Shown one piece after another: positions 607-64,000 of a DNA stretch of 64,000 nt. This DNA comes from Gibbula magus. Its lineage: Eukaryota > Mollusca > Gastropoda > Trochida > Trochidae. Where the stretch lies: contig OW388289.1 of the NCBI GenBank assembly GCA_936450465.1, positions 80,803,093 through 80,867,092 of the forward strand, given 5' to 3'. The notes under the pieces are model-generated. The model was not told the DNA's origin and did no database searches. It worked only from the letters and a program-made list of their open reading frames with translations. Every line of letters starts with the position of its first letter. Within the stretch, counting starts at the first letter, position 1. The translations under genes and the position numbers were made by a program.

Positions 607-3600
607 TCAATGGATTATCTCCCCTTTCTCTCCCTTCCACCTCTCCACAAGTTCCACCTTACAGCCGAGATCTCTGAGAGCAGCCTTGGCCTCATCCTCC
701 AGTGCTTTGTGTCTACTGCGTGCCTCGTTGATCAGCAGCTCAGCTCCTTGTTCCAGTATCTTGTCACAGTTCTCTCGGGTACGAGCGACCAGGTTACGCA
801 GAGCCATACAAGCTTGTTTCTACAACAAAGGGCAGTGTGGTCTTAACTCCCATTTAGTGAATTTTTGCATTTAATACAAATGAAATGTAACATTAATATA
901 AAAACCAAATTAAATATATTTATTGTGATTATATAGAACCATGCTGGTTTGGTTCTACAATACACACATTATTATATTTGCATTACTTTTGTGCACACTC
1001 CATGATACATGTAAACAGTGAACACATAACACTATATGAAAACATAAAATACAGTTTCTTTGCCTTGTTATCTACTTTTAATTCATTAATTCATCTAGTT
1101 ACCTCAACCGTATAATAAACACTTTAATCACACCTATAAAAACATTTATCAGACTTCCTATACAAAATCAGTGGAGGAAAAACGGGGAAAATAGATGGCG
1201 TTACTTTGTCAAGTGAGTTACTTTGTCAAATAATACGGGAAGAAGTACATACAATTCTCAAAAACTTGCCAGCCCATTACAAGTTTATGGTCTGTGAAAC
1301 AGGCTATATTTCATTTACTCTGTAAGATAAAGCAAGTCCTCACCTGGAGCCCCTCCGCCCCCGGGTGTATCTTCATGGCTTGGATAATGTTCTGATAACC
1401 CAAACACTCCATCACCTTGGCAACGTGGCCTGGATTACGCAACACTACAGTAGCCAAGGCAGAACATGCTGCTTCTGCGATGGAGGCATTTGCCTGATGC
1501 TTCATCATGGAGGCAAGGATCAACTCCACTCCATTAGACTTCACAATCACAGACTTCACGTTGTCATTCCCCGCTAGCGCTTTTAGTACAACCGGAGCTT
1601 GCTTAGAGATGTTCTGATGATGAAAAAGATATGGCAAACTTGTACATTTGGTAAGTATAACTGTATCACTTGACGATCTAAACAGTATTTGTCATGAAAA
1701 AGATATATCCGTTATAATTGATTAACATACCATCTTTGATAATATAGATTTACCGGTAAGAGTCATAAATAATGTTTACTCCTAGAGGCCACTTGAAATC
1801 ATTGATAATGACAACCTGGATTGTCTCCCAACAAAGATTACTCAACTCATTTCTTTCCACATAACTTTTATTACATGTTGGCTAACTTGGCTATATTTCT
1901 GGTTTCAGTAAAATCCATCAAGGGTGAAAGTTAGAAACACAGACAGCACCCTTATTTCTATCATATCAAAACTTGTTCTATATCTCCAACTGACCACTGT
2001 TTTTTAAGAAATATGTGTGAATCACACAAGTGAAGGAACTTCCATTGGCATTATCGGTCAAGGGTACTGACCAAATGCTCAGTTTGAAAATCTCTGATTA
2101 CACAACTAACTTTGATTGCAACAAACCAGGAATCTAACACAGAAAGTAGCCAAAATGACTTGAGTTAACTCAATGGATAGATAATGAACCTGGATAGATA
2201 ATGTACATAATTTAAAGTCATAGACAACTGATTTTTTGTACCAGCATATTCATGATGTAAAGAGTTTTTCTTTTGAACAAACCTTTTCATTGAGATTTGA
2301 TTGAAAAGCCTTCAAAATCAATGTCACTCCCCCTAAATCATCAACTTGTTTACAAAATTCATCCCTCACTGCTAATCGGGCTAGGGTTGCGAACAACTCG
2401 CTCAGTACATTGCTGTCGTCTTCATACTCTGAAACAAAATATTTGTAATCTTCAGACATGTTACATGACTGATTAACATTCATGATAAAAGTTGATCTAC
2501 TATTAATTGTTATGATTTGTCCAGTTTAACCACTAGACATATCACTTGTCCTTCATTCTATGAGTTGACAATCATACAAATATTAAACCAAATCAATTAA
2601 GAACCTTTTACCAAGATGTGGTGTTAGTAGTGTTTGTTCTCCCTGTTGACCATCCCCAATCAAAAAGATATTTGCATGTCATACTCATGCATAATGTATT
2701 GTATAATTTGCCTTTTAATTTACCTTTGCAGATATTAAGGATTCTTTCAAGGGCATTTCCCTCTGTAACAATCATCTTTGCATGTTCGTGAGCCTTTCCA
2801 AACGGGACCCTCACATCATCATCATTGGTTAGAACTCGAAGGAGTGTGCAGACTTCCTTCACAACAGAAGGACTTTGCTTACAATCCTCTAACAGCTCTG
2901 AGAGGATGACAATTATGTCCTTGCTGACAAAGTTTTGACGATTACCCTCGTGCTTGACACACATCAATCTTATACAACGCACAACCAGCTCTAAAATGTC
3001 AAAGTTTGTCTTGAATTTTCTTAAGTTCTCAGTGAACATGACACATCCTTCTTCATCAAGTAGATCAGGCTGACCATTTACAAGAGCACAGAAAGCTCTA
3101 AGAACTGCAGATAATACAGTTGTATTTTCCGAATATTTGACACACAGTTTGACCAAGACTGGATATGCCTTGTTGTTGCCAGCGAGACATCTTCGAGACA
3201 AATCAACATCACACTCAGTTTGTACAATATCTAAAGCTGATATGACTGTCTCGTCAGATTCCTTGGATACCTGAGAGAGATCCTGAATAGCTTTGATAAC
3301 AGGGTGAACTACTGTTTCACCGCCACCTCCACTGAACAAACTTGCATCCTTGACAATGTTATCCAGATTCACATTCTGAAATTATATAAATACTGTGATA
3401 ATGAAATCTAAAACAATCGTAAAAACAGATACCTCAACATTAAAGTTTTCCTGCTTTGAACCTGAAATAGCATTAAAATATTGAGTTGGAAGTTCTTGAA
3501 CTACTTTATTTTCAAGAAAACCTAATGAAAAGCATACAATATACATTATTTAGTATAAAGTGTAAATGAGCTATATTGTTATTACTTCAATAATGTTCAT

Positions 3601-46380: not shown

Positions 46381-49076
46381 GCATGTCGTTATTACTGAAA
46401 TAAAGGTAAAACTGGTAAATAAGCGCTACATAATATTCCTGAATCAATAAAATGAGTTCCAAAACGAATGTACATGCAGTCCATTTCCCAGCATAGTGCA
46501 TTGCAGTAGCGCAATACAATTGGACGAAATGAACTCAAACTACTTATAACTACATCTTGACATTTCACATAAAGCATATTATCCTATGATACTTTCTTCT
46601 TTGTTTGAACCTATAGACGTTTCTATTTCCAAAGTCATGGGGGCCGCCATCTTGGTGTCACGTGACTGTCCGCCATTAAGGTGCTGTTCAAAACGTCAGC
46701 TTGCCTGACGTTAGTGTGAAGCGGTAACATCACACTCGCTCGCCTACTCCGACCGTCAGAGATTGCATAAATAAACATGATATCCTGTTTTTATATATTA
46801 AAAAGTGCTAAAAGTGTTTAATTCATTAAAAGTGAAATTAAGTTTGGCTTTTTTAAATTCAAGCGCTAAGAGCGCTATAAAAACAAGATTAGTTCCATGT
46901 TGACTTTAATAAGTTTTATATGTTTCTACGTAAATATCGAGACGCAATATTCCTGTGGATATAGGCCAAGATAATTAATGAACATTTATAAACAGATTTC
47001 CCCCGAATAATAACAAAAATAGACGACAGAGAAACACAGCACCATGTTCAAAGGAAATATTTTGTTTCCCCGATGACATGTTTGTTTGAACCAAGCACAA
47101 AATTGTGTCAAAACAACGAACTAAACTACCCAGATAAAACAAATGAAAGAGAATTTTCAAAAGAGTGAAAACAAAATACTACTGTCAAATAAAGTCTGAC
47201 TCGTAAATTATATATCTTGCATTGTATGGGGTATGTATTGCTTCTCTTGCTCCTGGAGTTAAATCCTTTAATAAGGAAAATGAAAAGTTGAACTCATATT
47301 CTTGATTAATATGGTTACATACACTATTGGGCTGTATGCGTTCATTACGAATACGATGCACCGTTTTGCTTTTTAATGACATAGGCGAACCAGTCACATT
47401 TACTGTCAACATAAAACATGTTTTAGTATTAAAGCATTTTCCGTATTTAACAGGTTATAAAGCTACTTTAAAAGGTAGGCCTTTTCATTGCGACATGGTA
47501 TCGGCTAATTACATATATCATCAATATAAACTTTCTGTTTGTGTATATCATAGTTAATGCAAGTTAATTATTTTATAAATAAACTCTTTGTCATAACCTT
47601 GTACGGGTATGTTCGCTAAAATGTCAGATATATATTTCGGACGTTACAAGTAAAAACTCGGGGATGGTGTCTGTACATTAATTTCGAACTAATTCTTCAG
47701 ATTTCTCTTAATAATCTTTGTGTTGTGGCTTTACGTTCACTTTTGATTTGTATAGGGAAAACGTTGTTTTAAGTAAGAGAACTTCCATATCATTTGAAAT
47801 TGAAAAACATTCTATCAATATTAAGAAACATAAATCTTTACCGTTTGAAAACAATAGTAGAATTAACTAATTCGTGACAACTACGATACATGGCTTTAAA
47901 TATTTCCAGAAACAAATCTCATTGACTTATAAACAAACATTCTAAAACAAATAGATCCATATTAAAAAGAACTGTGATGATATATCTATGACGGGGTTGA
48001 CCCATCCTCTTTCAATTTGAATCCGATATTCTGTCATGCATTTAATTGAAACTATCATAGACAAATCCTAAAAATTTCCTCTTATATTTCCCGACACTAG
48101 CTGTAGGCTATATTCAAAATTTTAACAGGACGGTAATTCAAAGCAAGCTCTCGAAATGTAGGTCTAGTTTCGTCAAGCTTAAAACGTAAAACATTTCTTT
48201 CAAAAAAGGCAATCAAACGTAGACATATAATTACTTATTACTCTTGAATTTTAAGTTACTTTTTATCTTTTTTCTTCATCGCAAATACTAAACAGTTGTC
48301 TTCAGTTCCATGTATAGGCCTAATTTCTTATGCGCACCGAAAAATAAAGATGCAGCAATTAAGTGATTAGACAGAAAGTGCGGTTTCTCCCCAAAAATCT
48401 CAAAGTTCTGCGGATGCCTTCCTTTTGATATATTCTGAACAAAATTGTGTATATATATTCTAGATCTGTTTTCATAATCGTAAAGAGAAAATAATTATCT
48501 TTAATTCAATGTATAATTTGTTTATGCGTAGCAAAATGTAAATATGCGGGAAGTCATGCGACAAGTGTCGCAAACAGGCCGTTTATCAAAATCTTTTAGC
48601 GTCAACGGCCGGGCACCAAGAGGGTTAATTGATGTATTCTCCTTTCATATAAATAATTGTAATAAGCTCAAAATTACTTTCTTCATAAAAGGGTAGTTTT
48701 TTAAAAATAAATATATTGACATTTATTTCAGGATGTCATTGTAATAGTTTTGTTTAAATGTTCAGTGTTGAATTTCTGGTACAGTAGGCTAATTTGACAT
48801 GATTTAAATTAAGAAATATAAGTTATTTCTATAAATAAAATCTTCAAATGAATCAAATTCGACAGCTTTTTCATACACTCAAACAGTGCAAGGTAATTTG
48901 ACCATTTAATCATGTTTTATATAACTCTTTTTGTTGATTTCCATACAATGTGGGCGTGTACGCTACAGTGTAAACAAGCTAGCAATCAGCACCTCAATGG
49001 CGGACGACCCTAGCGCCTTTAGTGAGAAAGGGGGATAACTCTTACTATAGCTTCAAATAGAAACGTGTATACTTAC

Positions 49077-49205
49077 AGTAACTAAAACGAGAAAGGTCAA
49101 TCCGTGCAAACCTGATATTATAACCATCGTCATATCATGTTCGAAAGAGATCGGCTCTACCGTTGCCAATGGAGAAACAACTACACTGCCATTTATGCCA
49201 ATTGT
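49077..49205 (-). CDS. candidate exon, possibly encoding a signal peptide
   Basis: A good acceptor (TTTTACAG) and donor (ACT|GTAAGT) bound 129 bp, 43 open codons, on the minus strand. The last part reads MTMVIISGLHGLTFLVLVT, which would suit a signal peptide or membrane helix. It does not join in frame with the exon candidate at 49697-49790 without hitting a stop, so one of them may be untranslated. Confidence 0.3.
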
Positions 49206-49310
49206 CTGTAAAATTGTATACACTGCATGTTCACAAGTTGTATGGAGTGCTTATAATAATAACCGTTGACGTATTCTTGATTCACAAAGACTAGCCCGGT
49301 AGCTGACAGA

Positions 49311-49393
49311 AGGATAAAAGGTTGTTTACGTTGTGACTCAAAGTGTTCTCAATCCGAACTATCGAACATAATACCGGGAAGAAACGCTTAAAG
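49311..49393 (+). promoter_or_regulatory. possible promoter and 5' UTR exon of the ion channel
   Basis: GGATAAAAGG near 49311 resembles a TATA box. A strong donor AAAG|GTAAGT follows with exon end at 49393. It could splice to the TTTTCAG acceptor at 50137-50139, whose exon contains the channel start codon. The transcription start is inferred. Confidence 0.35.
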
Positions 49394-49696
49394 GTAAGTC
49401 GGGTTGTAACAGACGCAGGCTGTAAATATCACATACATGTAACAAATATTAGACTGAATTACTTATAATTGTGAATAATTTTATAAGATTAAATCACGTT
49501 TGATAAATATTAATTTGTTCGTTCTCAAATTTACACCCAAATAAGACCTCGTTGAAAACATTCAAAAATCATGACAAAAAGTTAAATAATTTATGTTAAT
49601 TGTTTCAATATTATTATGCGACTGTTAACAAATTGTGTTGCTGAACTAAAAAAATCCGAATCAATATCGAAGGCATTTGAATATGAATATTTTACC

Positions 49697-49790
49697 TGTC
49701 TTGTTGCTGCATGGGTCGATGTTGGTATAGTTCGTCTTCACTCGGCTCGGAGTAAAGAGAACAGTCCACCAATCTGAAATCTGAAATGTG
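49697..49790 (-). other. candidate exon with canonical splice sites, frame unresolved
   Basis: The minus strand has ATTTCAG acceptors near 49790 and a donor ACAG|GTAAAA near 49697. Two of three frames are open: ISDWWTVLFTPSRVKTNYTN and LVDCSLYSEPSEDELYQHRP. Joined to the exon at 49205 the second frame stops after QLA. It may be a last coding exon or a 5' UTR exon. Confidence 0.25.
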
Positions 49791-50197
49791 AAGATTCCAC
49801 CTCTTGAACGAAATATGTTTTCTATATTGGAGTCTCAAAGGGTTTAGTTGCATTTAATGATGATATTCTACCGTACAGCTGATGCGACTTATTAGTCTAT
49901 CATGTTCCATTAATGTGTTTATGAAGTATTCGTTGTGAGCAAGAAGTCCTACTGAACGTGTATTTAAATAAAGAGACATAATAACGTCAATTGAAAACAA
50001 AAGCGGGACAGGATAGTTTCCTTGCCTCAGTCAACTGGAAGCTACTTCGTCAATAGGCTTCATTACAGAGAAGACGTATTTCGCAGTAGTGTGCACAGGG
50101 GGGGAGAACTATAACTCCAAACACTTCTCTGATTTTCAGAAGAGAATGAGTGATTCCAAACACGGTCAGGAGAGAAGTGATCACAGGTGAAAACGCT

Positions 50198-53100
50198 ATG
50201 GAGGGTTTGGATCATGTTGCAAATGAACGCTATGCCAACTACACGGTGGATTCGAACCACCGGTCATCGTCTCGGGATACTCAGCTGGCTATGGAAGAGG
50301 ACTGTCCAGTGGTATGGGACACATCTGATGTTGGACACTGTCCACCCCCGACCCCCCAGCCCAAGGTGTTTATAAGGGTCGTGTTCCTCAAGATAGGGGA
50401 GATAGACACCATGAAGGAACAGTTCTCAGCTGACGTATTCGTGCAGGCCAGGTGGAGGGAGCCCTCGCTTGACCACTCCACTGAACGGGTGAGTACTCGA
50501 TGCATCGACGATATGAAATTCTTGAATGTAAGAGGGCCGACTTATCGGACGAACTAGCCGATATCTGAAATAAAAGCTCGTGTTTTCTTCATCGATTGAA
50601 CGATAAAACTGTTTTCAATTTGCAAATTGTAGATCTAGGTGTAGCAAAATAAGTTTAAAATGTTTTGTGTTTTTTTTAAGAATGTTTTTTAATTTGGCAA
50701 TTACAAATCTAAACGTACGAACGGGAAATTAACTTTCACGATATTTCCACAAAAATAATCCCTAACAGCTTGTTGTTAAGCTTGTGACACGCACGTCTCA
50801 GTAATCGACCAATTAGAGATTGATGTTGAAATGCATTGAATGCCAAGTATTATTATAGTCCCTTTTTCCTTTTCTCTCTGCAGATAACTACAATACTCAA
50901 CATTTACTTTGCAGTAGCGATAATGATATCATACACATAATGCCATGTTTATTCATTACGTGTTATATTAAATACGCTGCAGCACGTTGTTGCATATTAT
51001 TTTTTTTCTCAAGTTTGTTGTTCGTTATTTAAGATTATACAATATCTTGTGACATTAGAGGGTAAAACATCTCATTACAAGACCCAATAAGCCGTATAAA
51101 AAAAGAAGACTATCAGTTTTGGTAGTAAATGGTGCGACATATAAAGCGACAATTTTGTTGAACTCATCAGTGTGAGAGGTAGAATTTTAAGTCATATTGG
51201 ATTTTGAGAGTTCAGAGAGCGAGATGGTTGATCATCCAATCATTTATACCATATTTACAACTCTACTTTGAGTGTTTAGGTATCGTATATCAGTGAGATC
51301 ACTTGGATTACCTTCGAGCGGCCATTTTGATGTGAACACTTTGAAATGGCCGCTCGATAGGACATGGACTCGCATGGCTTAACTGAACCATGTACATTCG
51401 AACTCTTTTTATTTATTCAGGAGTATTAGTTAGTCATTGGTAACTCGTATTTACCTGTTTGTGAGAGCATATAATTTCAGTAAACAGAATGTACTACAGC
51501 GCCTTTAGAGTTACCGTTATAGTTTACGGCATGTATATGACTCTCCAGAAAGAGTACAAGCATTTTCACTAAAATTGCAGATGGTATTATTATTCTAAAC
51601 ATAACAATGTTAGTATTTCGCTCAGTTGAAATGCGTCTGTACCAAGCCTTGATTTAACCCTCTGTCTTCAGGTTACATTTGCTCCATTCATGTTTTGTTA
51701 ACGAAAAATATGTGTTTTTATTTTTTCTAATATCTCGTCTTCGATCAATCTGTGAATGCTATAACGTTGATGCAAGTCCTAAATTACCATATTCTACTTA
51801 AACGTACACAATATGTGGGTTCATCCATGCAGATTTGCTGTTCTCATGCAGAAAGTCGCCTTTTCGCGGCTTTACTCCCTGAAGACGATTAAATTGTTAA
51901 ATTTTAAAAAAAAAGTATTACATGTCATGTTCCTAAGATGTAGCGATTGTAAACTATAGCTATCCAAGAGTTGAAACAACTTGATATAATGCTACGGCAT
52001 TCAATGGAATAACGGAATGCCGGAATAACGTTATTTTAATGGACAAAATGGCGCTAGGAAAACAGTTGCAAATTCTTCTTTGCCTAAACCATTTAAGACA
52101 TTTTACCTGTTATTAATTCATGCTGTCTCATAATACCAGAAGACGCAAAATACCGTTCCATTTGTGACATTTAATATTTGTTCATATGCCGTTGTCAGTT
52201 GTCAATCTATCAGTAGTTATACTCTATACATGCATGATATATATACTTATGTATTTGCCATATGTCTTTGTTTAAGGCATTACACGTGTTGTTTGATAAA
52301 TTGGTTGAGACCTACGATTATATACACCATGACATGTAATCTCATCTTTTAAAATGAATTAATATTTAATTCTATCACAATATGATCTATATTATGAAAC
52401 TTTGTACAATAAAATATTTGAATAACATTCCTTCACTTGTCAAAAAACGTGAACTGCACGATGTAGCCGATGCTTGTCTTTATCTCTTATATTTGAGAGC
52501 TGTCCTGACATTAGAGCTTTCTAGAATGGAATACTAAATTAATGTTTTATTGATAACAACTTGATGTAACCTTTTCACGCAACAAAAGAAATAATATCGC
52601 TATATGATGACTAAAACCATGAATAATAGAATACTCCACTTTATGAAGTATTAAGTGCAAGTCAACTTGGTATACATTCTGGAGCTTGTCTGCGTTTGTA
52701 CAACAGTTCAACTTAAATTGTCAATTCTAATAAGCCAATGAACAAACATATTATGAAATATATTTCTTATAAATATAAAATTTACAATATAAGGGTCGTT
52801 TGAATCCCTAAGTGTTAGCTTCTTGTAGAGTTGAAGGATCTGGTTTAACGGCGGTTGTATCGCCCCTCATGATCAGTGATTGTTTTCACATTGATCTTTT
52901 CATTTTACCTGTTCGATTATATTATAAATAATGTTATAATCTATAAAATATATGTTCTAATATTGTCTGTCAATTCATGTTCATGGGTACGCTCCAATGC
53001 TGTATTACGTTAAAACATGTCACACCACAATGAAAGTAACACGAAGCGCATATTCACTAAGGGCATTGTAATTCCAGTTCCCTGATGTACATCAATTAGA

Positions 53101-56100
53101 TTTAATTTTGATAAAATTGTTAGCTATACTTCGCTGAACTGTAAAGCTAGTTGCACTTTTATACCTGAGGACACTTACAACCATGTCAACACTTAAAACA
53201 CTATACGCCAAGTTTCAAGACCTGTTCGGATTCTGTCATAATATTTGAATCGCAGTTCAGGAAATAAAGTTTATAAAAGATGTTTTTGAAATAATGTACC
53301 ATTTTTAGTTTAATTTCGTTTGACGCGTATGGCGTCTGAAAACATTTGAAAAATCCTATTTCATTCTCTTATCTTGACTACTTAAGTAGATTCCAAAACG
53401 ACATAATTGTTTAAGGTTAAATTTTCAGTAATATGAACAGATAATGTTTCAAATAGTAAAAAAATTTAATGTCAAAAGGAAACAAAGACAAACATTCCAT
53501 AACTTTCATTGCAATAACTCAAAAGAGACAAAACCTTAATTTTACTTTTGCGTTTTCTTTTTTGAAGAGTGAATCATCAAATTAAAGTGATTGTTTCATG
53601 TTGGCAAGGCAAATATATATTATATGCCAGGCAAATATTTCATTATCTACTAGAATAGAGAACAGTGTGTGGTGATTAACGGATCCCGATTAGATAAAAG
53701 AGGTGTCTTTGCCGGAGTACCACAGGGTTCAGTATTAGGACCGCTCTTGTTATACCCCCGCTACGACGTCATTCCGTCCGTCCGTCATTCCGTCCGGTCA
53801 ATTTTCTGAAAAACCGTCAAAGGTACATCAACCAAACTTTGTACAGTTGTTAAACACGTTCTTCCCATAGCGCACAGACAGTTTTAATTTTTCTGAGATT
53901 TAATTTTTTTTTTCTCGGAAACTAATAAATCTAGATGAATGAAATTTTGGTTTCGAGTACTCATGACCATACTCTTTATCGAGTTCGAAAACCAGTTCTG
54001 AAATATTTTTTTAACGGAGTTATGGGCCTTGAATCCGAAATTGAACTTAGTACCAAAATCGCTGTGGTGCTCCAATGGGGACATGTTTTCCCGGCAACTA
54101 TACTACACCTAGGTGAATGAAATTTAACATGTAGATAGATAGTCCAGATGATAATGTCTAGATGATGAGTTCAAATTCAAGTTCCGAAATATTATTGCCC
54201 TTGAATCTGTAATTGAAATTGGTACCAATTACCGCTGTGAAGCCCTAATGGGAACAATTAAGTTACCTGAAAAATATCACATCTGAGTGAATGAAATTTT
54301 GTTCTAACAAAGCCAGTTCCCAAAAATATTTTAGACAATATTATGATGCTTGGATCTGTTTTAAACATTGTACCCTTGAATTCTATTATGCTCAATGGAC
54401 GGATAGCGGATGGCGGGGGTAAATGAGCCATGCTCATATTTTTCTTGTTTATTTATAATATTGTATATATAAATGATATAGTAGAAGGTATAAATAGTAA
54501 TATACGCCTTTTTGCGGACGATAACCTTTATATGCCATTAATGGTGACCACGTCGAAACTGCTAATGATATAAATGATTGACCTGAAGCGAATAGCTGAA
54601 TGGGCAGAACAATGCCAGTAGATATTTGTCAATGATGAAACTTGTCTAGTAAATATTTGTCCATGATGACACTTGTCCAGTAGATATTTGTCCATGATGA
54701 CGCTTGTCCTTGGTGGCACTTGTCCGGTCCACATTTGTCCAGTCCCAGGGTGGCGCTTAGTAGGCGGCTATATTGTCCTTTGTGCCACTTGTCTTGGTGG
54801 TTATTATCCTTGATGGCATTGTTGCAAGTGGCTACTGTCCTTGATAACGTCTGTCCAGAGGGCACGTATCCGGTCAACAATTGTCCATGATGGCGCTTGT
54901 CCTTGGTGGCATTTTTCCGGGGTCTACATTTGTCTGATCCTCACATGTCAGGGTGGCACTTAGTAGGCGGCTATTATCTTTGACGGCACTTATCTTGGTT
55001 GCTCTTGTCGGGCTGGTTAATGTCCTTGGTGGTGCTTATTTTGGGTGGTTAATGTCTTTGGTGGTACTTGTTTTGGGAGGTTATTGTTCTTGGCGGTACT
55101 TGTCCGAGTTCCTGTTCTCTTATAATTAACAGAGACGTGAAAGAATCACATTTTCAAATAAGAAATAACATTGTTTGATTGATAATGCATGGTGTTTGAT
55201 TGGCTGAAGTTTAGTGACAAAATTTCAGTCATTAGCCATATTATACACCGGCAGGGTCGGACCTGTTTGTTCGGGGGAAACTGACTGCAAACCGATTATT
55301 CGAGCACACGTCCGTCCGTCCCATTATCAACTTCGTCAGAACTTACAGCAGAATAACACCCGACACCCGTGTGACAATGATCTACCTAGCCAATGAGAAC
55401 ATTAATGTCTTGCCATGGCCACCCAGGTCCTCAGAATTGACCCTCATGGAGCATATCTGGGATCAACTCGACGTGTACGTCAACAGGTCCGACAGACGTT
55501 TGCAGAGAACTTGCAGTAGTGTCCAACGTGTCGAGCATACGATCTGTTCCGGGGCGGTGTGGAGCAGTGATAGCATCTCGTGATGCTCACACCAGGTACT
55601 GACTATATACCCCTGGGGCTACACATTGTGCACTGGATGGTATGACAACGTGATGACAATATACACAATACAGTTGTCATCCTGTGTACGCAATTTGGGC
55701 TCACTAGGTTCAATCTGCTATAAGATATGCTCGTTTGAATAAACACCAACTATATCTTGGATCTGTGTTTTGAAGAGTGTATTTGATAGTGTGCTTGTTG
55801 CCATATATAAACGAATTATATTCGAACATATTCACCACGTTGTATCCCTGAGTTTTCATCTCACTGTCTGTGACTCCAATTGAAATACAACTCACGAAAT
55901 AAAGCTAAAGTTTAAAAAAAATGATGCTGATCTTGCAAGATTCTGCCCGAGTTGGGTCATGTCGTTGTTAATGGATTTGTGTCGGCGTGATCATATGAAC
56001 CGTGATTTATCGATATGTTTGTCTGTATCTCTGTTATAGCTTCCTTATGTATGGTGACGCGTCTCAACCTATCGCGTATCCAAGCACAGTTTAGAATCTG

Positions 56101-59100
56101 CCTTATTTTATTCTGCTCACGGTATATTCAATTTAATTCAAGTCAATAGTCAATAGTCCCACAATGCGATACCTCAATATAAGAAAATAAGCATATTATT
56201 AGTGTTAACGGAATATTCCAAGTATACCAAACAAGTTGTAAAAAATTAGATGAAATGAAAACATGGCATTGATCGTTATATTTTATTTACGAGTTTGGTA
56301 AATATGACTGTGCTGACTGTGTATGTGCTGACAAAGGGCATATACAGATGTACGTCACTGTACCAATACTTGAAATATAATATATAAAATAGTGCATACA
56401 TAATTTATAAATACCAAAATAAATAATCCTTTAAATTCATGATCAAAACTTGACTAATTGGTAATCCTTCCATTAAACCCCATTTATCATGAGTTGATGA
56501 GGTAATAATTGGAAATCCTACTTCCCGTCAACAGAGCAATCAGATCGCTCGATTGGTATTTAGGGCGGCGTAACATTCACCTTGGTCGATTTTCGAATTT
56601 GAAGAGAAATTAAAATAATTAAAATGATTGACATGTGATGGAAACAAACCAAGTTCTGTGGGGAAATGTATATCTGGGTGGTACGTGTGTTTAGTGTTGA
56701 ATGTCACCGATTTCATAGCGTAACATTCTACCTGAAAACAAACCGAGTCGAGATCGACAGCGATTGCTGACGTAGATCCTTTAGGGTGTATATCTTTTAC
56801 CTACGTTTTACTTACATTTTAATGACGATATCGAGTTCCTGTGCCTGGGTTTCATATAGCGTTGTCTTCCTTGGTTACAAACGACATTTAGAAACATTTC
56901 ATATATAGTCCATCCGGTTGTTTGAATGGGTACCTGAACACGGGAAATACGGACCTATACCTTTGGAAGCGGCAAATTACTATTCCTTTAGGACAATACA
57001 ATATGGTTACGTTTTGGACAATGTGTTCATATACAGGCCAAAACTTTTGGGACACCCCTCGTATAAGTGCATGGAGAAATCATGTTATTTATTAAATGAA
57101 ATGAATTTGGGACACTATTTATATATAGTTTTTTTATCATTACATAAGCTATCACCTCATGAAATGACACATAAAAAGTATCAATTATTCATAATGTACA
57201 ACAATTTACACTTACATTAAAATGATAAGAATCATTTGGTCTTTCCTTGGAATAACTGCTATTACCTACACTTAAATGAGGTTCGATGCTCTATGTGGAG
57301 AACGATAATAATAAGTTCCGCTAAGATATTTGGAAGTATCAATATTCTCTTTCTCCATAGCTCATAAACATATTTATGTATTGCCTGTATATAGAGACAA
57401 TTACCCGATAACTGTTTCATGTGACCTTTACGAAACGAGTGTAAAAAAATTTATTGTCAGAGCGAGAGCGAGGGTTATACACACATTTGCACGAGTTTCG
57501 TAAAAGTCATATGAGACTTTCGAGTGTAATAATTTGTCAATTACCCGTTCCAATAAATTTATACAGATAAAAAAAGGTTACAACAAATGTAAACATAATT
57601 TCAAATATATTGTGCGTTGTGTTTTTATGCTTTCTAATTTATGAATAAAAATTTAAGGTGTTCAAATTTCGTTTTCTAATTCACTAGTCTGATGACGACA
57701 TAATAATCTATGACCACACGTTGTCGTCCACAGAAAAAAAGTTGTATATCTATAAATTAATTCTACTCACTCATCACACTGACTTCTAGAATGCCCAAAA
57801 TATATGTATGTTCCCAGGCTGTGACTGAGTCACTAACAGTCGTATGGTGAGAGAGGGCCTTTACTGATAGACAAGTTGGTATAATTATTCTGTAAACGTG
57901 AAACGTAACTTTCATTACTCTAGACAGTGATAGGGTCATTGATTTGATTAAAATTGTATCACGTTCAAGTCCATTTACATAAAGAATGCTGTTGAATCTA
58001 ACCCAACGTTTCTGCCACATAATTAAGAAATTTTAATATCAAAGGTTTAACTTTCACGAATTCAAATCATCATTAGAGTATTGGTTAAGTTCAAATTTTA
58101 TTCCTTTCTGCAGAACGTGGATGACGTTGACTGGACATCTAAATGGAACCCCAAGTTACTGATTCAGAACACAGCGAGTGACCAGAAGCAAAGCATATGG
58201 TTTGATGTGCAGTTCAGCGAGGGTCAGGCGTACGTCCTGGAGAAGAGGCGAGTCAAGGGGTGGTTCACCGAGAACCTCGAACTCGAGGACTTCCCCTTCG
58301 ATATACAGGTACTCTTAAAGGGGTGGTTCACCGAGAACTTCGAACTCGAGGACTTCCCCTTCGATATACAGGTACTCTTAAAGGGGTGGTTCACCGAGAA
58401 CTTCGAACTCGAGGACTTCCCCTTCGATATACAGGTACTCTTAAAGGGGTGGTTCACCGAGAACCTCGAACTCGAGGACTTCCCCTTCGATATACAGGTA
58501 CTCTTAAAGGGGTGGTTCACCGAGAACCGAGAACTCGAGGACTTCCCCTTCGATATACAGGTACTCTTAAAGGGGTGGTTCACCGAGAACCGAGAACTCG
58601 AGGACTTCCCCTTCGATATACAGGTACTCTTAAAGGGGTGGTTCACCGAGAACCGAGAACTCGAGGACTTCCCCTTCGATATACAGGTACTCTTAAAGGG
58701 GTGGTTCACCGAGAACTTCGAACTCGAGGACTTCCCCTTCGATATACAGGTACTCTTAAAGGGGTGGTTCACCGAGAACCGAGAACTCGAGGACTTCCCC
58801 TTCGATATACAGGTACTCTTAAAGGGGTGGTTCACCGAGAACCGAGAACTCGAGGACTTCCCCTTCGATATACAGGTACTCTTAAAGGGGTGGTTCACCG
58901 AGAACCTCGAACTCGAGGACTTCCCCTTCGATATACAGGTACTCTTAAAGGGGTGGTTCACCGAGAACCGAGAACCGAGAACTCGAGGACTTCCCCTTCG
59001 ATATACAGGTACTCTTAAAGGGGTGGTTCACCGAGAACCGAGAACTCGAGGACTTCCCCTTCGATATACAGGTACTCTTAAAGGGGTGGTTCACCGAAAA

Positions 59101-62100
59101 CCGAGAACTCGAGGACTTCCCCTTCGATATACAGGTACTCTTAAAGGGGTGGTTCACCGAGAACTTCGAACTCGAGGACTTCCCCTTCGATATACAGGTA
59201 CTCTTAAAGGGGTGGTTCACCGAGAACCGAGAACTCGAGGACTTCCCCTTCGATATACAGGTACTCTTAAAGGGGTGGTTCACCGAGAACCGAGAACTCG
59301 AGGACTTCCCCTTCGATATACAGGTACTCTTAAAGGGGTGGTTCACCGAGAACCTCGAACTCGAGGACTTCCCCTTCGATATACAGGTACTCTTAAAGGG
59401 GTGGTTCACCGAGAACCTCGAACTCGAGGACTTCCCCTTCGATATACAGGTACTCTTAAAGGGCTGGTTCACCAAGAACCGAGAACTCGAGGACTTCCCC
59501 TTCGATATACAGGTACTCTTAAAGGGGTGGTTCACCGAGAACCGAGAACTCGAGGACTTCCCCTTCGATATACAGGTACTCTTAAAGGGGTGGTTCACCA
59601 AGAACCGAGAACTCGAGGACTTCCCCTTCGATATACAGGTACTCTTAAAGGGGTGGTTCACCGAGAACCTCGAACTCGAGGACTTCCCCTTCGATATACA
59701 GGTACTCTTAAAGGGCTGGTTCACCGAGAACCTCGAACTCGAGGACTTCCCCTTCGATATACAGGTACTCTTAAAGGGGTGGTTCACCGAGAACCTCGAA
59801 CTCGAGGACTTCCCCTTCGATATACAGGTACTCTTAAATGGCTGGTTCACCGAGAACCTCGAACTCGAGGACTTCCCCTTCGATATACAGGTACTCTTAA
59901 AGGGCTGGTTCACCGAGAACCTCGAACTCGAGGACTTCCCCTTACATATACAGGTACTCATCGGAGTGTCCGCCATTTTGTTTTTGTGCATTAAAGGCAC
60001 TGTAGCACGTTTTTTCGCTCAAATAAGTTGATGAAATGTATTTGAAAAATAATTTCACCAATGGTAAAACATCCTTCTCTCTTCGGAAAATAAAGTTTAA
60101 AATGAGTGTACATGTTTCGGTAAAGCCATGGGAAATGTTTTTGTAATATAAAATAATAAATTGTGTTCACAATAAAATGGCCGCCATGCAATTTTTGCTT
60201 TATACGCAACATATTTTTTACCGCTACAGATAATTGGTTTGTGTAATAAGATGTTTTACCCTCTTAAGTTAGTTTAAATGACATAAACTATCATTATAAA
60301 TGGGAAATTTGAAAAAATAAATTTTGCAAAAAACGTGCTACTGCCCCTTTAAAGACCCTGATCATCTTTGCATTCCGTTGGATAATGTAGTCTACAGACA
60401 CAGCTTGTTTAAAATCTTCTGCTCATTCTTAAGGACGAGAATGCGTCCGTTGTGCAATGTACAGACACAAGTGGATAACAGCAGTTATTATCTTGACAAG
60501 ATTACATGTCGACAGCTGTCGAATTGATTTTCGCGATCATCTTGGTTTACGTCCCACAATCCTTTGCGCGACCTCGAAAATAATACGCCCCTTTCTATAT
60601 TTTTAGCAATAAGCCAATGTCCTTTAGTTTAAAGTCTGTATTTTCACGAATAACGGTAAGATTTTCTCGGGGCTCGTTGCAATGTCTTGCTAAATATATA
60701 AGGAATACGTTTAAAGTAATTTAATTAACTTTGAGCATGCATCTTTAAGTCAATTGAGAAAATAGCTCCATTGTTATTAATGCTACAACTGTTTGATAAT
60801 AACACGTGTATATTGACAGAATATGTACTAAGTAACAAATAATTGACCATTAGACGGACCAACAATGTACTGTTATGCTTTATCAACCTACCAGCCATAT
60901 AACGTGATACTTCAAACGACCTTTCTAAACCATACCACCCGGTACGAGGGACTTACAACCTTGTAATTCGCTCCAGGAGGGTTTACACAGACAGTTGTAA
61001 ACACTGTTAGAAGGAATTATAATGATTGTAAACCCTGATATATGTGTTAAGATGACGGCTTGAAAGTAAAGATCTGAAGAAACTAACTAAGAGTAATTTT
61101 GAAAATTTTCATAAGTTTACGACAGAATATGTACAGCAAATGTTTTGCAGAAAGGGCGTCTCGAACCCGTATCCACTATCACCTGTAGTTACTGAGTCAA
61201 CGCCTTAGACTTCTGCGCCAAGGGGGCAGACGAGATTTCACGGTACAAAAGAAACTCATATAGCGCGGCTGTTAACAGCCTGACATCACCGAGGGATCCT
61301 CAATATAACGCCAGGGATCCTCAATATAACGCGATTACAAGTAAAAACCCTGTTTTACACTTAAAACCGGTTGATAATATAGATAAGCCATTCTACCTCG
61401 GATATGGTAAGGTTGTAGACCCTGATAATCAGGAAAAACCCTCGGATGCTTCGCATCCTCGGGTTTTTCCTTCCTATCAGGGTCCACAACCTTACCATAT
61501 CCTCGGTATCATGGCTTATCCTTATAGTAGCACATCTTCTTCACACTCGTAAGTTTACTTCTTTATTTTTGGATGAATGGAACATTGTCAAATCTAAAGT
61601 CATCAAAATATTACATTGACTAGTATGTTTCAAATGGATTGCTTCAATCAAGTATAGATAACATATATGTGTAAACAGGAATCTTCCCCAGGATGTCGTT
61701 TCGAGAAAAATAATCCGAGAGCTAGAGCCTTATAATCGTGAAATTAACCTTCTTATTTGTAAACATGCATCTTTTTTTTCTTGAGGACAACCTAGGATGC
61801 ATCCGTTGTATATTGCACAGACACAAGTGCTTAGAAAATCATAGACCTGAAGCACGCTTCCGTTTGCAGCGTGTTACCGACTCTGTGTATTTAGATAGCC
61901 AGAAATATATCAACCCGTGACCTTTCCGTTGATATACAGGCGCCATTCTGTTTAATAATCTATGGCGTGTTCCTGGTTACAAAACATTATCATTTTCAGT
62001 GATTAAACATTGAATAGACCGTGTGGTTCTAGATATCTAGAATATCTAGAACAAACCCGGAACCATTTTCTTTGATATATTGGTATTAGCACTGAATTCG

Positions 62101-64000
62101 GTCTATTCATTCCAATAAAATCGTTTTAATGTATATTTCATAAAATATCAATGTGTGTTTAGATGGCTAGAGCAGAACATTGAGCAGAACTGTGTGATAT
62201 TTCGGAATATTCATTTACAAGTTATCAAAACATGATGTTTTGGTTTAGTTTGTGTTAGATTTCTTTCATAAAAACTCTTAAAATTAGTTGGTTGTGGGTT
62301 CATATTTTTACATTCGGTCATGGAGAAAATCAATTGCAATTATAATTGTGCCTACAACATCAACAAATGTAAAAGACTGATTTATTACATTAACATTTAA
62401 AGAGACATTTAGTGTGTTCGTGTTTCCATAGAAACTTTTCCCACACATATAAATGCCTGGAGAAATCTTTCATTTACAATGACATATGAAAAAATAATGT
62501 TCATATCAGGTCATGATGACACTGAATGCGATGTCATTAGTTGGATTTTCCATTCTTGCATTCTACGTAATTAACACTCGTCATCCTCTCCTTAATAGAA
62601 GTATAGCCCCGATCTCCTCTCCTCAATAGAAGTATAACCCCGATCTCCTCTCCTCAATAGAGTATAACCCCGACCTCCTCTCCTCAATAGAGTATAACCC
62701 CGACCTCCTCTCCTCAATAGAGTATAACCCCGACCTCCTCTCCTCAATAGAAGTATAACCCCGATCTCCTCTCCTCAATAGAAGTATAACCCCGATCTCC
62801 TCTCCTCAATAGAAGTATAACCCCGATCTCCTCTCCTCAATAGAAGTATAACCCCGACCTCCTCTCCTCAATAGAAGTATAACCCCGATCTCCTCTCCTC
62901 AATAGAAGTATAACCCCGATCTCCTCTCCTCAATAGAAGTATAACCCCGATCTCCTCTCCTCAATAGAAGTATAACCCCGATCTCCTCTCCTCAATAGAA
63001 GTATAACCCCGACCTCCTCTCCTCAATAGACGTATAACCCCGACCTCCTCTCCTCAATAGAAGTATAACCCCGATCTCCTCTCCTCAATAGAGTATAACC
63101 CCGACCTCCTCTCCTCAATAGAAGTATAACCCCGACCTCCTCTCCTCAATAGAAGTATAACCCCGATCTCCTCTCCTCAATAGAAGTATAACCCCGATCT
63201 CCTCTCCTCAATAGAAGTATAACCCCGATCTCCTCTCCTCAATAGAAGTATAACCCCGACCTCCTCTCCTCAATAGAAGTATAACCCCGATCTCCTCTCC
63301 TCAATAGAAGTATAACCCCGATCTCCTCTCCTCAATAGAAGTATAACCCCGATCTCCTCTCCTCAATAGAAGTATAACCCCGATCTCCTCTCCTCAATAG
63401 AAGTATAACCCCGATCTCCTCTCCTCAATAGACGTATAACCCCGACCTCCTCTCCTCAATAGAAGTATAACCCCGATCTCCTCTCCTCAATAGAGTATAA
63501 CCCCGATCTCCTCTCCTCAATAGAGTATAACCCCGACCTCCTCTCCTCAATAGAAGTATAACCCCGACCTCCTCTCCTCAATAGAAGTATAACCCCGATC
63601 TCCTCTCCTCAATAGAGTATAACCCCGATCTCCTCTCCTCAATAGAAGTATAACCCCGACCTCCTCTCCTCAATAGAAGTATAACCCCGATCTCCTCTCC
63701 TCAATAGAAGTATAACCCCGATCTCCTCTCCTCAATAGAAGTATAACCCCGATCTCCTCTCCTCAATAGAAGTATAACCCCGACCTACTCTCCTCAATAG
63801 AAGTATAACCCCGACCTCCTCTCCTCAATAGAAGTATAACCCCGATCCTTTACTAAACCTATGTCTGCAGCACCTGTCGCTGATGATCACGTCAGACTTG
63901 TCCAGCTCTGAGGTGAGTCTACTGGACGACGAGTATGAGCTGAGCAGTGTGAATAGACTGAGCTTCATTGACGAACAGGAGTGGGAGATGCGGAACTTCG
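50198..64000 (+). CDS. pentameric ligand-gated ion channel, cysteine-less (Pro-loop), 5' part
   Basis: Exons 50198-50488, 58114-58308 and 63871 to the window edge join in phase 0 at both introns (CGG|GTGAGT, CTGCAG|AAC, CAG|GTACTC, CTGCAG|CAC), giving 205 residues of the extracellular domain. The ATG at 50198 is the first in frame; a TGA lies at 50147. Residues about 57-90 (VFIRVVFLKIGEIDTMKEQF, then VFVQARWREPSLD) are the family's first strands, where RWREP is the loop with the conserved Trp. Exon 2 has WNPKLLIQN and DFPFDIQ (157-160 FPFD), and exon 3 has SFIDEQEWEM. Such proteins form five-subunit membrane channels opened by small ligands. Aligning to FPxD, the two Cys of the 13-residue Cys-loop are Glu and Leu here, as in prokaryotic Pro-loop channels. 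No N-terminal signal peptide is visible; the first 50 residues are polar. The ligand and ion selectivity cannot be read, because the transmembrane exons lie outside. Confidence 0.82.
50489..53680 (+). other. first part of channel intron 1, no gene seen
   Basis: AT-rich intron sequence. The only structure noted is a 15-bp-arm hairpin at 51313-51357 (TCGAGCGGCCATTTT and its near-complement). No exon of the channel family was recognised here. Confidence 0.6.
51313..51357. repeat. short hairpin
   Basis: TCGAGCGGCCATTTTGATG pairs with AAATGGCCGCTCGA around a 13-bp loop. Confidence 0.6.
53680..54630 (+). mobile_element. LINE RT fragment split by a nested DNA element
   Basis: The left part (53697-53751) reads GVFAGVPQGSVLGPLLL. 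The right part (54449-54630) reads VYINDIVEGINSNIRLFADD and then DLKRIAEWAEQC. Together they are the central RT region of a jockey/CR1-like element with an intact FADD box but later stops. The two parts are separated by the element at 53752-54442. Confidence 0.8.
53752..54442. mobile_element. non-autonomous DNA element nested in the LINE
   Basis: About 690 bp, bounded by TACCCCCGCTACGACGTCAT at the left and AGCGGATGGCGGGGGTAA near the right, imperfect inverted ends. TCTTGTT occurs on both sides (53745-53751 and 54443-54449) and may be the target duplication. About 20 bp lie between the right inverted end and the second TCTTGTT, so the exact boundary is uncertain. CCGTCCGTCC near the left end resembles a repeat common in mollusc genomes (from memory). 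Confidence 0.6.
54615..55110. repeat. degenerate minisatellite (TTTGTCCATGATGACACTTG...)
   Basis: The unit is about 31 bp at the left (AGTAGATATTTGTCCATGAT plus GACACTTGTCC) and loosens to CTTGGTGGCACTTGTCC-type words at the right. The first unit runs straight on from the LINE RT coding sequence. Confidence 0.8.
55230..55625 (+). mobile_element. Tc1-like transposase remnant
   Basis: Across two frames the sequence reads like the C-terminal half of a Tc1 DDE transposase: an RVGPVCSGETDC lead, then NINVLPWPPRSSELTLMEHI with WDQLDVYVNR after it, matching the NVLPWPxxSPDLNPIEHxWD block, and finally SRDAHTRY before a stop near 55585. The catalytic Asp of SPDLNPIEH reads Glu (SSELTLMEH). With frame breaks, it is inactive. 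Confidence 0.8.
55640..58113 (+). other. remaining part of channel intron 1
   Basis: AT-rich, with MITE family D copy 2 at 57396-57550. A plus-strand frame at 56918-57220 (FEWVPEHGKYGPIPLEAANY) has no recognised family and no support. The intron ends at TTCCTTTCTGCAG (58113). Confidence 0.6.
57396..57550. mobile_element. hairpin MITE, family D, copy 2 (in the channel intron)
   Basis: AATTACCCGA, CATGTGACCTTTACGAAACG, AGCGAGAGCGAGGGTTATAC, CACGAGTTTCGTAAAAGTC, TTTCGAGTGTAATAATTT and ATTACCCG occur in the same order as in 20433-20590. It sits inside intron 1 of the ion-channel CDS. Confidence 0.65.
58258..59953 (+). repeat. 27-copy, 63-bp minisatellite made from the channel exon end and its splice donor
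   Basis: Each unit holds the last 51 bp of channel exon 2 (GWFTENLELEDFPFDIQ) followed by 12 bp GTACTCTTAAAG from the intron. 27 x 63 - 12 + 7 = 1696 bp, which is exactly the measured length; the extra 7 bp (AACCGAG) lie in copy 12. Units differ mainly at one codon (CTC, TTC or CGA before GAA). The last unit has a CG-to-AC change (FPLHIQ) and leads into a different intron sequence, GTACTCATCGG. All 27 retain CAG|GTACTC. As the unit is a multiple of 3 without stops, open frames of 245-637 residues appear on both strands; these are by-products unless later donors are used. Confidence 0.95.
59991..60352. mobile_element. TTAA-flanked MITE (piggyBac-like ends)
   Basis: TTAA then AGGCACTGTAGCACGTTTTTT at the left is mirrored by AAAAAACGTGCTACTGCCCCTT then TTAA at the right. 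A TTAA target site fits piggyBac-type elements. The interior codes for nothing seen. A similar left end (TTAAAGGCACTGTTGCACG) occurs near 34217. Confidence 0.7.
61152..61230 (-). repeat. tRNA-Leu-like sequence (pseudogene or SINE head)
   Basis: The minus strand reads CCCCTTGGCGCAGAAGTCTA, then GTGGATACGGGTTCGAGACG. The A and B boxes are spaced for a tRNA with a long variable arm (Leu/Ser type). The anticodon stem does not close well. Confidence 0.5.
61382..61520. mobile_element. foldback element (139 bp)
   Basis: GATAAGCCAT..CCTCGGATATGGTAAGGTTG..GACCCTGATA..GGAAAAACCC on the left is mirrored on the right, around GATGCTTCGCATC at 61445-61457. A few mismatches are present. Confidence 0.7.
62585..63846 (+). 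repeat. about 41-copy, 28-31-bp minisatellite ending at a splice acceptor
   Basis: The unit is ATAGAAGTATAACCCCGATC then TCCTCTCCTCA (31 bp), with a shorter variant (ATAGAGTATAACC) and a C/T variant in GA(C/T)CTCC. The array is very homogeneous and stops 24 bp before channel exon 3 (acceptor CTGCAG at 63870). Its pyrimidine-rich blocks resemble polypyrimidine tracts. Confidence 0.95.

Follow-up and report, generated by a model that had tools for sequence, protein, structure and literature searches.

A ladder of 27 splice donors at the end of a Pro-loop receptor exon in Gibbula magus and repeat arrays at further exon ends of the gene and its paralogs

The receptor gene and the array at the end of exon B

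The stretch of DNA analysed (the window) comprises 64,000 nucleotides of the Gibbula magus assembly GCA_936450465.1 (contig OW388289.1, positions 80,803,093 to 80,867,092, forward strand) and carries the first three exons (A, B and C) of what is, judging from the sequence, an apparently intact gene for a Cys-less pentameric ligand-gated channel, or “Pro-loop receptor”. Tandem Repeats Finder (TRF) reported only one array at the end of exon B, with a 63-bp unit in 27.0 copies and 96% matches. The 27 CAGGTACTC sites of this array place the last exon-like base at 58308, 58371 and so on to 59953, with the GT one base later, and CAG/GTACTC (a slash within sequence marks the exon-intron boundary) was carried by 27/27 units. 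The initial annotation, which had described the region as a ladder of 27 splice donors made by tandem repetition of an exon end, is borne out by these counts. The spacing of the donors was 63 bp, with unit 12 (70 bp, 58939-59008) as the sole exception. Each repeat unit consists of 54 nt of exon (58255-58308) and 9 nt of the intron side (GTACTCTTA), and only six nucleotides of the intron part (GTACTC) agree with the intron that follows the final copy (GTACTCATCGG). The earlier description of the unit as the exon end plus the first 12 bp of the intron was therefore right for the exon end and its donor and wrong for the 12 bp. Exon sequence, intron sequence and a splice site are contained in one and the same array, which starts 54 nt inside exon B.

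Units 2-27 comprised 10 distinct sequences, and the three main unit types were distinguished by one codon (CTC, TTC or CGA). The variant order RRRFRRL was common to units 5-11 and 12-18, which points to the duplication of a 7-unit block. A chance origin of the repeat is excluded by the 27 near-identical copies. Tandem arrays are prone to miscounting, and the ladder might thus be the expansion, during assembly, of a smaller real array; against this stand the 10 distinct sequences in block order and the separate ladders at other exons, which make such an artefact very improbable. A short element with inverted ends (ATTAAAGGCACTGTAGCACGTTTTTT.. and ..AAAAAACGTGCTACTGCCCCTTTAAA), resembling a miniature inverted-repeat transposable element, was seen at ~59990-60353, ~36 bp past the last donor of the ladder.

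The remaining exons of the gene (D, E, F and G) all lie outside the window, 3.5-7.4 kb beyond its end, and were located in the assembly from which the window comes (1.47 Gb, 140 contigs). Joining of the seven exons gave a coding sequence of 1,221 nt, with 406 codons and a stop, and GT and AG were present at every junction; as far as sequence can tell, the gene is not the pseudogene that the initial annotation had allowed for. The best relative of exon B was the Haliotis rufescens protein P0001, named “cys-loop ligand-gated ion channel-like” (86% identity over 65 residues), which was the sole above-threshold match among 6 candidates preselected by shared words and length. P0001 matched the ligand-binding domain PF02931 with 35 bits (cut-off 26), and its match to the transmembrane domain PF02932 was just under the threshold (28.0 bits, cut-off 28.1). 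The AlphaFold model of P0001 (predicted local distance difference test, pLDDT, 85.5) showed a beta domain followed by four long helices, and the top Foldseek matches of this model were GLIC-GABA chimeras, ELIC and the glycine receptor. The closest sequences to P0001 in the PDB were ELIC chains.

Among 49 aligned relatives, none (0/49) had a Cys at either loop position, while P and D were found in 48/49, the remaining one being gapped there. The loop encoded by exon B of the window gene, FPFD, fits the motif [F/Y]PxD. The exon B peptide by itself matched no Pfam family and no PDB relative (one chance match), and Pfam scans of the three plus-strand frames of 49001-58308 and of 59954-64000 showed no receptor domain, which was missed because the exons are short. 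Cys-less Pro-loop receptors are known from gastropods, bivalves and others (PMC4795631). The window gene is like these receptors in its loop motif, the lack of the Cys pair and a predicted channel fold; neither repeats nor splicing are mentioned in the available text of PMC4795631. The intron following the Q of the Pro-loop was also present in the four paralog loci examined. In a Batillaria attramentaria model (P0009) compared with residues 149-167 of P0001, EKRR joins HLS directly, and just the stretch that makes up the window repeat is omitted; the gap points to an intron at the same position and possibly to a further donor upstream.

Arrays at other exon ends of the gene and in its paralogs

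At exon D of the window gene, the exon end is repeated into the intron in 2.8 copies (TRF) with four GTAAGT donors, the first two of which are in frame and adjoin the M2-M3 linker. Exons C and E each showed a single diverged copy of the exon end, ~95 and ~580 nt into their respective introns. Duplication of the whole exon, as in a mutually exclusive exon, was considered for these two copies and rejected, as only 45 and 35 columns were aligned, respectively. Larger arrays were found in two paralogs (Table 1), and in their 53- and 47-donor ladders an in-frame stop follows soon after donor 1, an open in-frame product being obtained from the first donor only. Three genes thus have donor ladders, two of them (the window gene and the C9 paralog) at both exon B and exon D and the third at exon D. 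The ladders look independent, judging by their sequences, because the unit lengths and intron parts differ between them. The acceptor ladder at exon C of the C1 106.30-Mb paralog contained ~19-20 units by TRF span and 9 exact GCAG/GACCT copies (L030 reverse complement 1-456 with L006 1-542), and the 106.31-Mb paralog contained one copy of the exon C acceptor upstream of exon C. Intron B of the C1 106.30-Mb paralog has a 29-bp array of ~118 copies (L006 1129-4571), which starts ~100 bp after exon B and does not include the exon.

Table 1 Features of the window gene, its arrays, and the arrays at exon boundaries of its paralogs
Feature	Position	Strand	Basis or detail
Exon A, coding, with likely start codon, end ..STER/gtgagt (strong donor)	50198..50488	+	tblastn of P0001; donor 7.47 bits
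Exon B, 65 codons of the ligand-binding domain, end ..ELEDFPFDIQ (Pro-loop), acceptor ttctgcag, phase 0	58114..58308	+	86% identity to P0001
Donor ladder, 63-bp x 27 minisatellite	58255..59959	+	last 54 nt of exon B and 9 nt (GTACTCTTA)
Donor 1, CAG/GTACTC, exon end 58308, expected source of the normal protein	58306..58314	+	P0001 without insert; in-frame join to exon C
Units 2-11, donors ending 58371 ... 58938, in frame, +21 residues each if used	58309..58938	+	site count, in-silico joining
Unit 12, 70 bp, 7-bp internal duplication, frame of all later donors shifted	58939..59008	+	
Units 13-27, donor use leading to a stop in exon C; unit 27 FPLHIQ, not FPFDIQ	59009..59953	+	
Second array of the same intron, 31 bp x 41, pyrimidine-rich units ending CAATAG	62584..63847	+	stops 23 bp short of the exon C acceptor
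Exon C (HLSLMITSDLSS...), acceptor tgtctgcag, end 128 nt past the window	63871..64000	+	tblastn and assembly
C9 paralog, exon B, 48-bp array, ~32 units			start 12 nt inside exon; 9 donor-like sites, decayed
C9 paralog, exon D, 31-33-bp array			start 16 nt inside exon; 53 donors
C1 paralog, exon D, 23-bp array	106.30 Mb	-	start 11 nt inside exon; 47 donors
C1 106.30-Mb paralog, exon C, acceptor ladder, 51-bp units ..AATTTCGCAG/GACCTGTCTATCGTGATCAC.. (3' splice site and exon C start)	C1 ~106.2995-106.3005 Mb		

The intron between exons B and C of the window gene (5,562 nt) has a large array at either end. The second of these, the 31-bp array, showed no visible exon-derived sequence, and its CAATAG unit ends are weakly acceptor-like, the common types ranking 94-122 of 3,199 AGs. 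Further donor-motif arrays were observed on C1, one at C1:5482392-5483571 with a 51-bp unit, GTAAGTACT..GTGCTATACAG/GTAAGT (AG/GT type), and one group at C1:52498817-52702963, where 43-bp arrays (..AACATCACTG/GTAAGTTGGG) occur at several neighbouring loci. A minus-strand open reading frame of the window (1314-1691) weakly resembled the LRRK2 ARM repeat family, its 18.9 bits falling short of the cut-off (26.2).

Reading frame and choice among the donors

The reading frame is open across all 27 units of the exon B array. In-silico joining to exon C showed donors 1-11 to be in frame, the products gaining 0-10 copies of a 21-residue insert, in agreement with the initial annotation, which had given the insert of donor n as (n-1) x 21 residues, whereas donors 12-27 are one base out of frame and run into a stop 13 codons into exon C. 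The placement of the insert at the Pro-loop was also correct, since exon B ends in FPFDIQ and the junction (Q167/H168 in the P0001 model) lies directly after the loop, at the start of strand beta7. If donors 1-11 were used in turn, the products would be length isoforms with 0-10 copies of the 21-residue repeat at the start of this strand, which would alter the coupling of binding to gating. The open frame and the site of the junction speak for this explanation, as do the first two in-frame donors of exon D near the M2-M3 linker.

The homologs point the other way. P0001 reads FPFDIQ-HLSLM with no insert at the exon B/C junction, an insert at Q/H was found in 0/49 aligned homologs, and P, D and Q of the loop were kept in all 48 that are ungapped there. 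No repeat-bearing protein was present among the 6 candidates of the exon B search or among the 7,993 candidates scored in the repeat-region search, both searches being capped and the latter being a weak negative that also missed P0001. Copies 2-27 differ among themselves by eight events (2 synonymous changes, 5 amino-acid replacements, 1 frameshift), and 2/7 base changes (29%) were synonymous vs 19% for random change in the unit; the array copies show no sign of coding constraint, on small numbers. With the frame broken at unit 12 and the large ladders of two paralogs closed by stops, isoform production by successive use of the donors is judged improbable. The initial annotation had offered two possibilities, length isoforms or tolerance through constant use of the first donor, and the second is the better supported of the two, in view of the closed paralog ladders and of copies that show no coding constraint. 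In-frame length isoforms would be possible mainly in the exon B array of the window.

A further explanation arises from the end of the unit, CTTCCCCTTCGATATACAG/GTACTC, which resembles an acceptor as well as a donor. Units retained through a late donor could later be excised as a GT-AG intron, and the normal message would be restored by such self-purging regardless of the initial donor, in a process akin to recursive splicing or to the AGGT model of intron gain. AG/GT was present in 27/27 units of exon B, and the unit acceptor outscored the real acceptor of exon C in 5/5 scorings and that of exon B in 3/5. A YTNAY branch-site match was found 41 nt upstream of the unit end in 26/27 units. The splice-site matrices and the branch-site consensus behind these scores are general approximations and not measured in this animal, and the branch site lies ~21 nt from the donor within one unit, which leaves only steps of at least two units looking feasible. 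The exon D ladders lack AG/GT altogether (0/4 in the window gene, 0/53 in the C9 paralog and 0/47 in the C1 paralog), and self-purging therefore cannot explain the tolerance of ladders in general. It was dropped as the preferred reading once this had been found, and it is regarded as unlikely.

The ladders could also have a role at the RNA level, in which many weak U1 sites at the start of the intron would buffer donor choice, guard against early polyadenylation, or throttle expression via nonsense-mediated decay. Large ladders with 27, 47 and 53 donor motifs, in three members of the receptor family, are in keeping with such a role. However, the arrays are not common to the paralogs, two paralog loci were without a ladder at the nine donors tested, and the splice core showed no sign of selection, 1/8 mutational events falling in the 20/63 core positions (P 0.22). 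An RNA-level role is accordingly considered quite improbable.

Probable seeding at splice sites and tolerance of the copies

The sequences suggest that the ladders are probably minisatellites that were seeded by tandem duplication across splice sites and have been tolerated as the first donor is normally used. A tandem duplication spanning the 5' splice site of exon B would have started the ladder, and slippage or unequal exchange would then have expanded it to 27 units. Splicing would commit to the first donor, at the end of the 195-nt exon, with copies 2-27 removed as intron, and a duplicate would be neutral because it stays intronic provided that splicing keeps to this donor. Three observations make use of the first donor likely: the gene is intact, P0001 is uninterrupted, and in the paralogs with large ladders a stop results from every donor but the first. 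Occasional use of donors 2-11 would produce receptors with 21-residue inserts after the Pro-loop, and use of donors 12-27 would produce messages with a premature stop. Internally repetitive exon ends, such as LELEDFPFD (CTCGAACTCGAG..) and YLTYL, may be prone to slippage and may make seeding recur.

For comparison with chance, arrays with a period of at least 10 and at least 2.5 copies were counted at four loci of the family (n=17), the 87.12-Mb paralog lying outside the count. A splice boundary was crossed by 6/17 family arrays vs 0.23 expected (Poisson 1.7e-7), an expectation that presumes uniform seeding and rests on an incomplete boundary list; subtraction of the window array that prompted the search left 5 (P ~4e-6). 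At the control loci (Hsp70, HSPD1 and SDHA), 0/8 arrays crossed any of 63 predicted boundaries, and neither of the two arrays at the 87.12-Mb loci extended to the exon match. In a first test on the window gene, 4/6 donors and 0/6 acceptors scored at least 34, and 240/3,000 random 52-mers did so. An automated test with the same score showed copies at 5/16 family donors vs 0/32 control donors (Hsp70 23, HSPD1 3, SDHA 6; Fisher 0.0026), and it overlooked the ladder at exon D in the C1 106.30-Mb paralog and the array at exon B in the C9 paralog (score 29, yet an array by TRF). Wider manual scanning, which covered nine exon matches each for HSPD1 and SDHA, showed two HSPD1 exon-end copies (scores 58 and 35) and one copy in an SDHA intron, and with hand-made denominators the comparison was 6/17 for the family vs 2/38 for the controls (P 0.008). 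Nearby copies outside arrays were rare, both at the family loci (7/2,901) and at the control loci (29/2,381). The HSPD1 locus (C12 ~47.13-47.14 Mb; L034, L036) contained two exon ends with a diverged copy shortly into the intron, the donor GT being present or absent.

Besides the assumptions behind the expected count, several results weigh against seeding at splice sites with use of the first donor. The 106.31-Mb and 87.12-Mb paralogs (5 and 4 donors, respectively) showed no donor ladder. The family loci are array-rich (16,150/86,699 bp, 19%), and a nearby copy was found at 6/17 donors vs 620/3,609 random noncoding 52-mers (P 0.06). Genome-wide, triple GGTAAGT (14-44 nt spacing) occurred 6,684 times vs 5,290 for the reversed pattern; the excess is small, and large arrays dominate the count. 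Donor 1 itself is weak (1.37 bits by the approximate matrix), 183/3,584 GTs outside the array score equally high, and only position and exon length distinguish it from its 26 copies. In human DOK7, the intron-proximal one of two competing donors is preferred, which is also the stronger one (PMC5585400); if a preference of this type applied here, donor 27 would win and the window gene would fail.

A genome-wide rule was also considered; the counts of triple GGTAAGT do not support a strong excess across the genome. A fuller proposal, in which splice sites seed minisatellites in this receptor family repeatedly and independently at homologous exon ends, the first of up to 53 donors is picked, and the window gene can make in-frame length isoforms in addition, is put forward tentatively and is rather doubtful as a whole.

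One published study of boundary repeats, PMC2812944, is presumably De Grassi and Ciccarelli 2009. It reports, for human segmental-duplication genes, minisatellites across exon-intron boundaries, 27 intron modifications, and novel introns arising by cryptic splice site activation (PMC2812944). Boundary-spanning tandem repeats with an effect on splicing had thus already been published, and the remark of the initial annotation that it knew of no described case of this arrangement could not be upheld as regards the kind of arrangement. The window array is like these cases in being a minisatellite that spans an exon-intron boundary; the outcome there was new introns, whereas in the present family an intron that the paralogs have in common has had its own donor multiplied, 27-53 times, in several mollusc receptor genes. 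In the RNA-dependent RNA polymerase (RdRp) gene of potato, a duplication across the intron-exon boundary made a new intron (Rogers AGGT model; PMC4974935), and in fission yeast 24-nt repeats were found with two gained introns (PMC3629103). The window array resembles intron gain of the AGGT type in its tandem copies with a splice site and in the AG/GT of every unit. It differs from the potato and fission yeast cases in that the copies are few there and far more numerous here, in that the exon D ladders are without AG/GT, and in that no sign of a new intron is seen here. Recursive splice sites, or ratchet points, likewise have acceptor-like and donor-like sequence juxtaposed around AG/GT (PMC6110457, PMC8605326); the recursive sites of flies are conserved and lie in very long introns, unlike the window intron with its 5,562 nt, one recent tandem array and a weak donor half. 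In the literature searched, no existing exon end was met with a ladder of tens of donors that recurs among paralogs, and absence from print is not claimed beyond that literature. The window ladder is an extreme, recurrent variant of the published exon-intron boundary repeats.

The choice of the spliceosome among identical donors has mostly been studied in minigenes with two sites. Natural counterparts are provided by the genes described here, where 27, 47 and 53 near-identical donors follow one another at a single exon end, in an animal that can supply RNA. Exclusive use of the first donor would mean that position alone settles the choice; otherwise, isoforms or premature stops follow. Recurrence at homologous exon ends would show that splice sites can be start points of minisatellites, an intermediate stage on the way from tandem duplication to new introns or exon ends.

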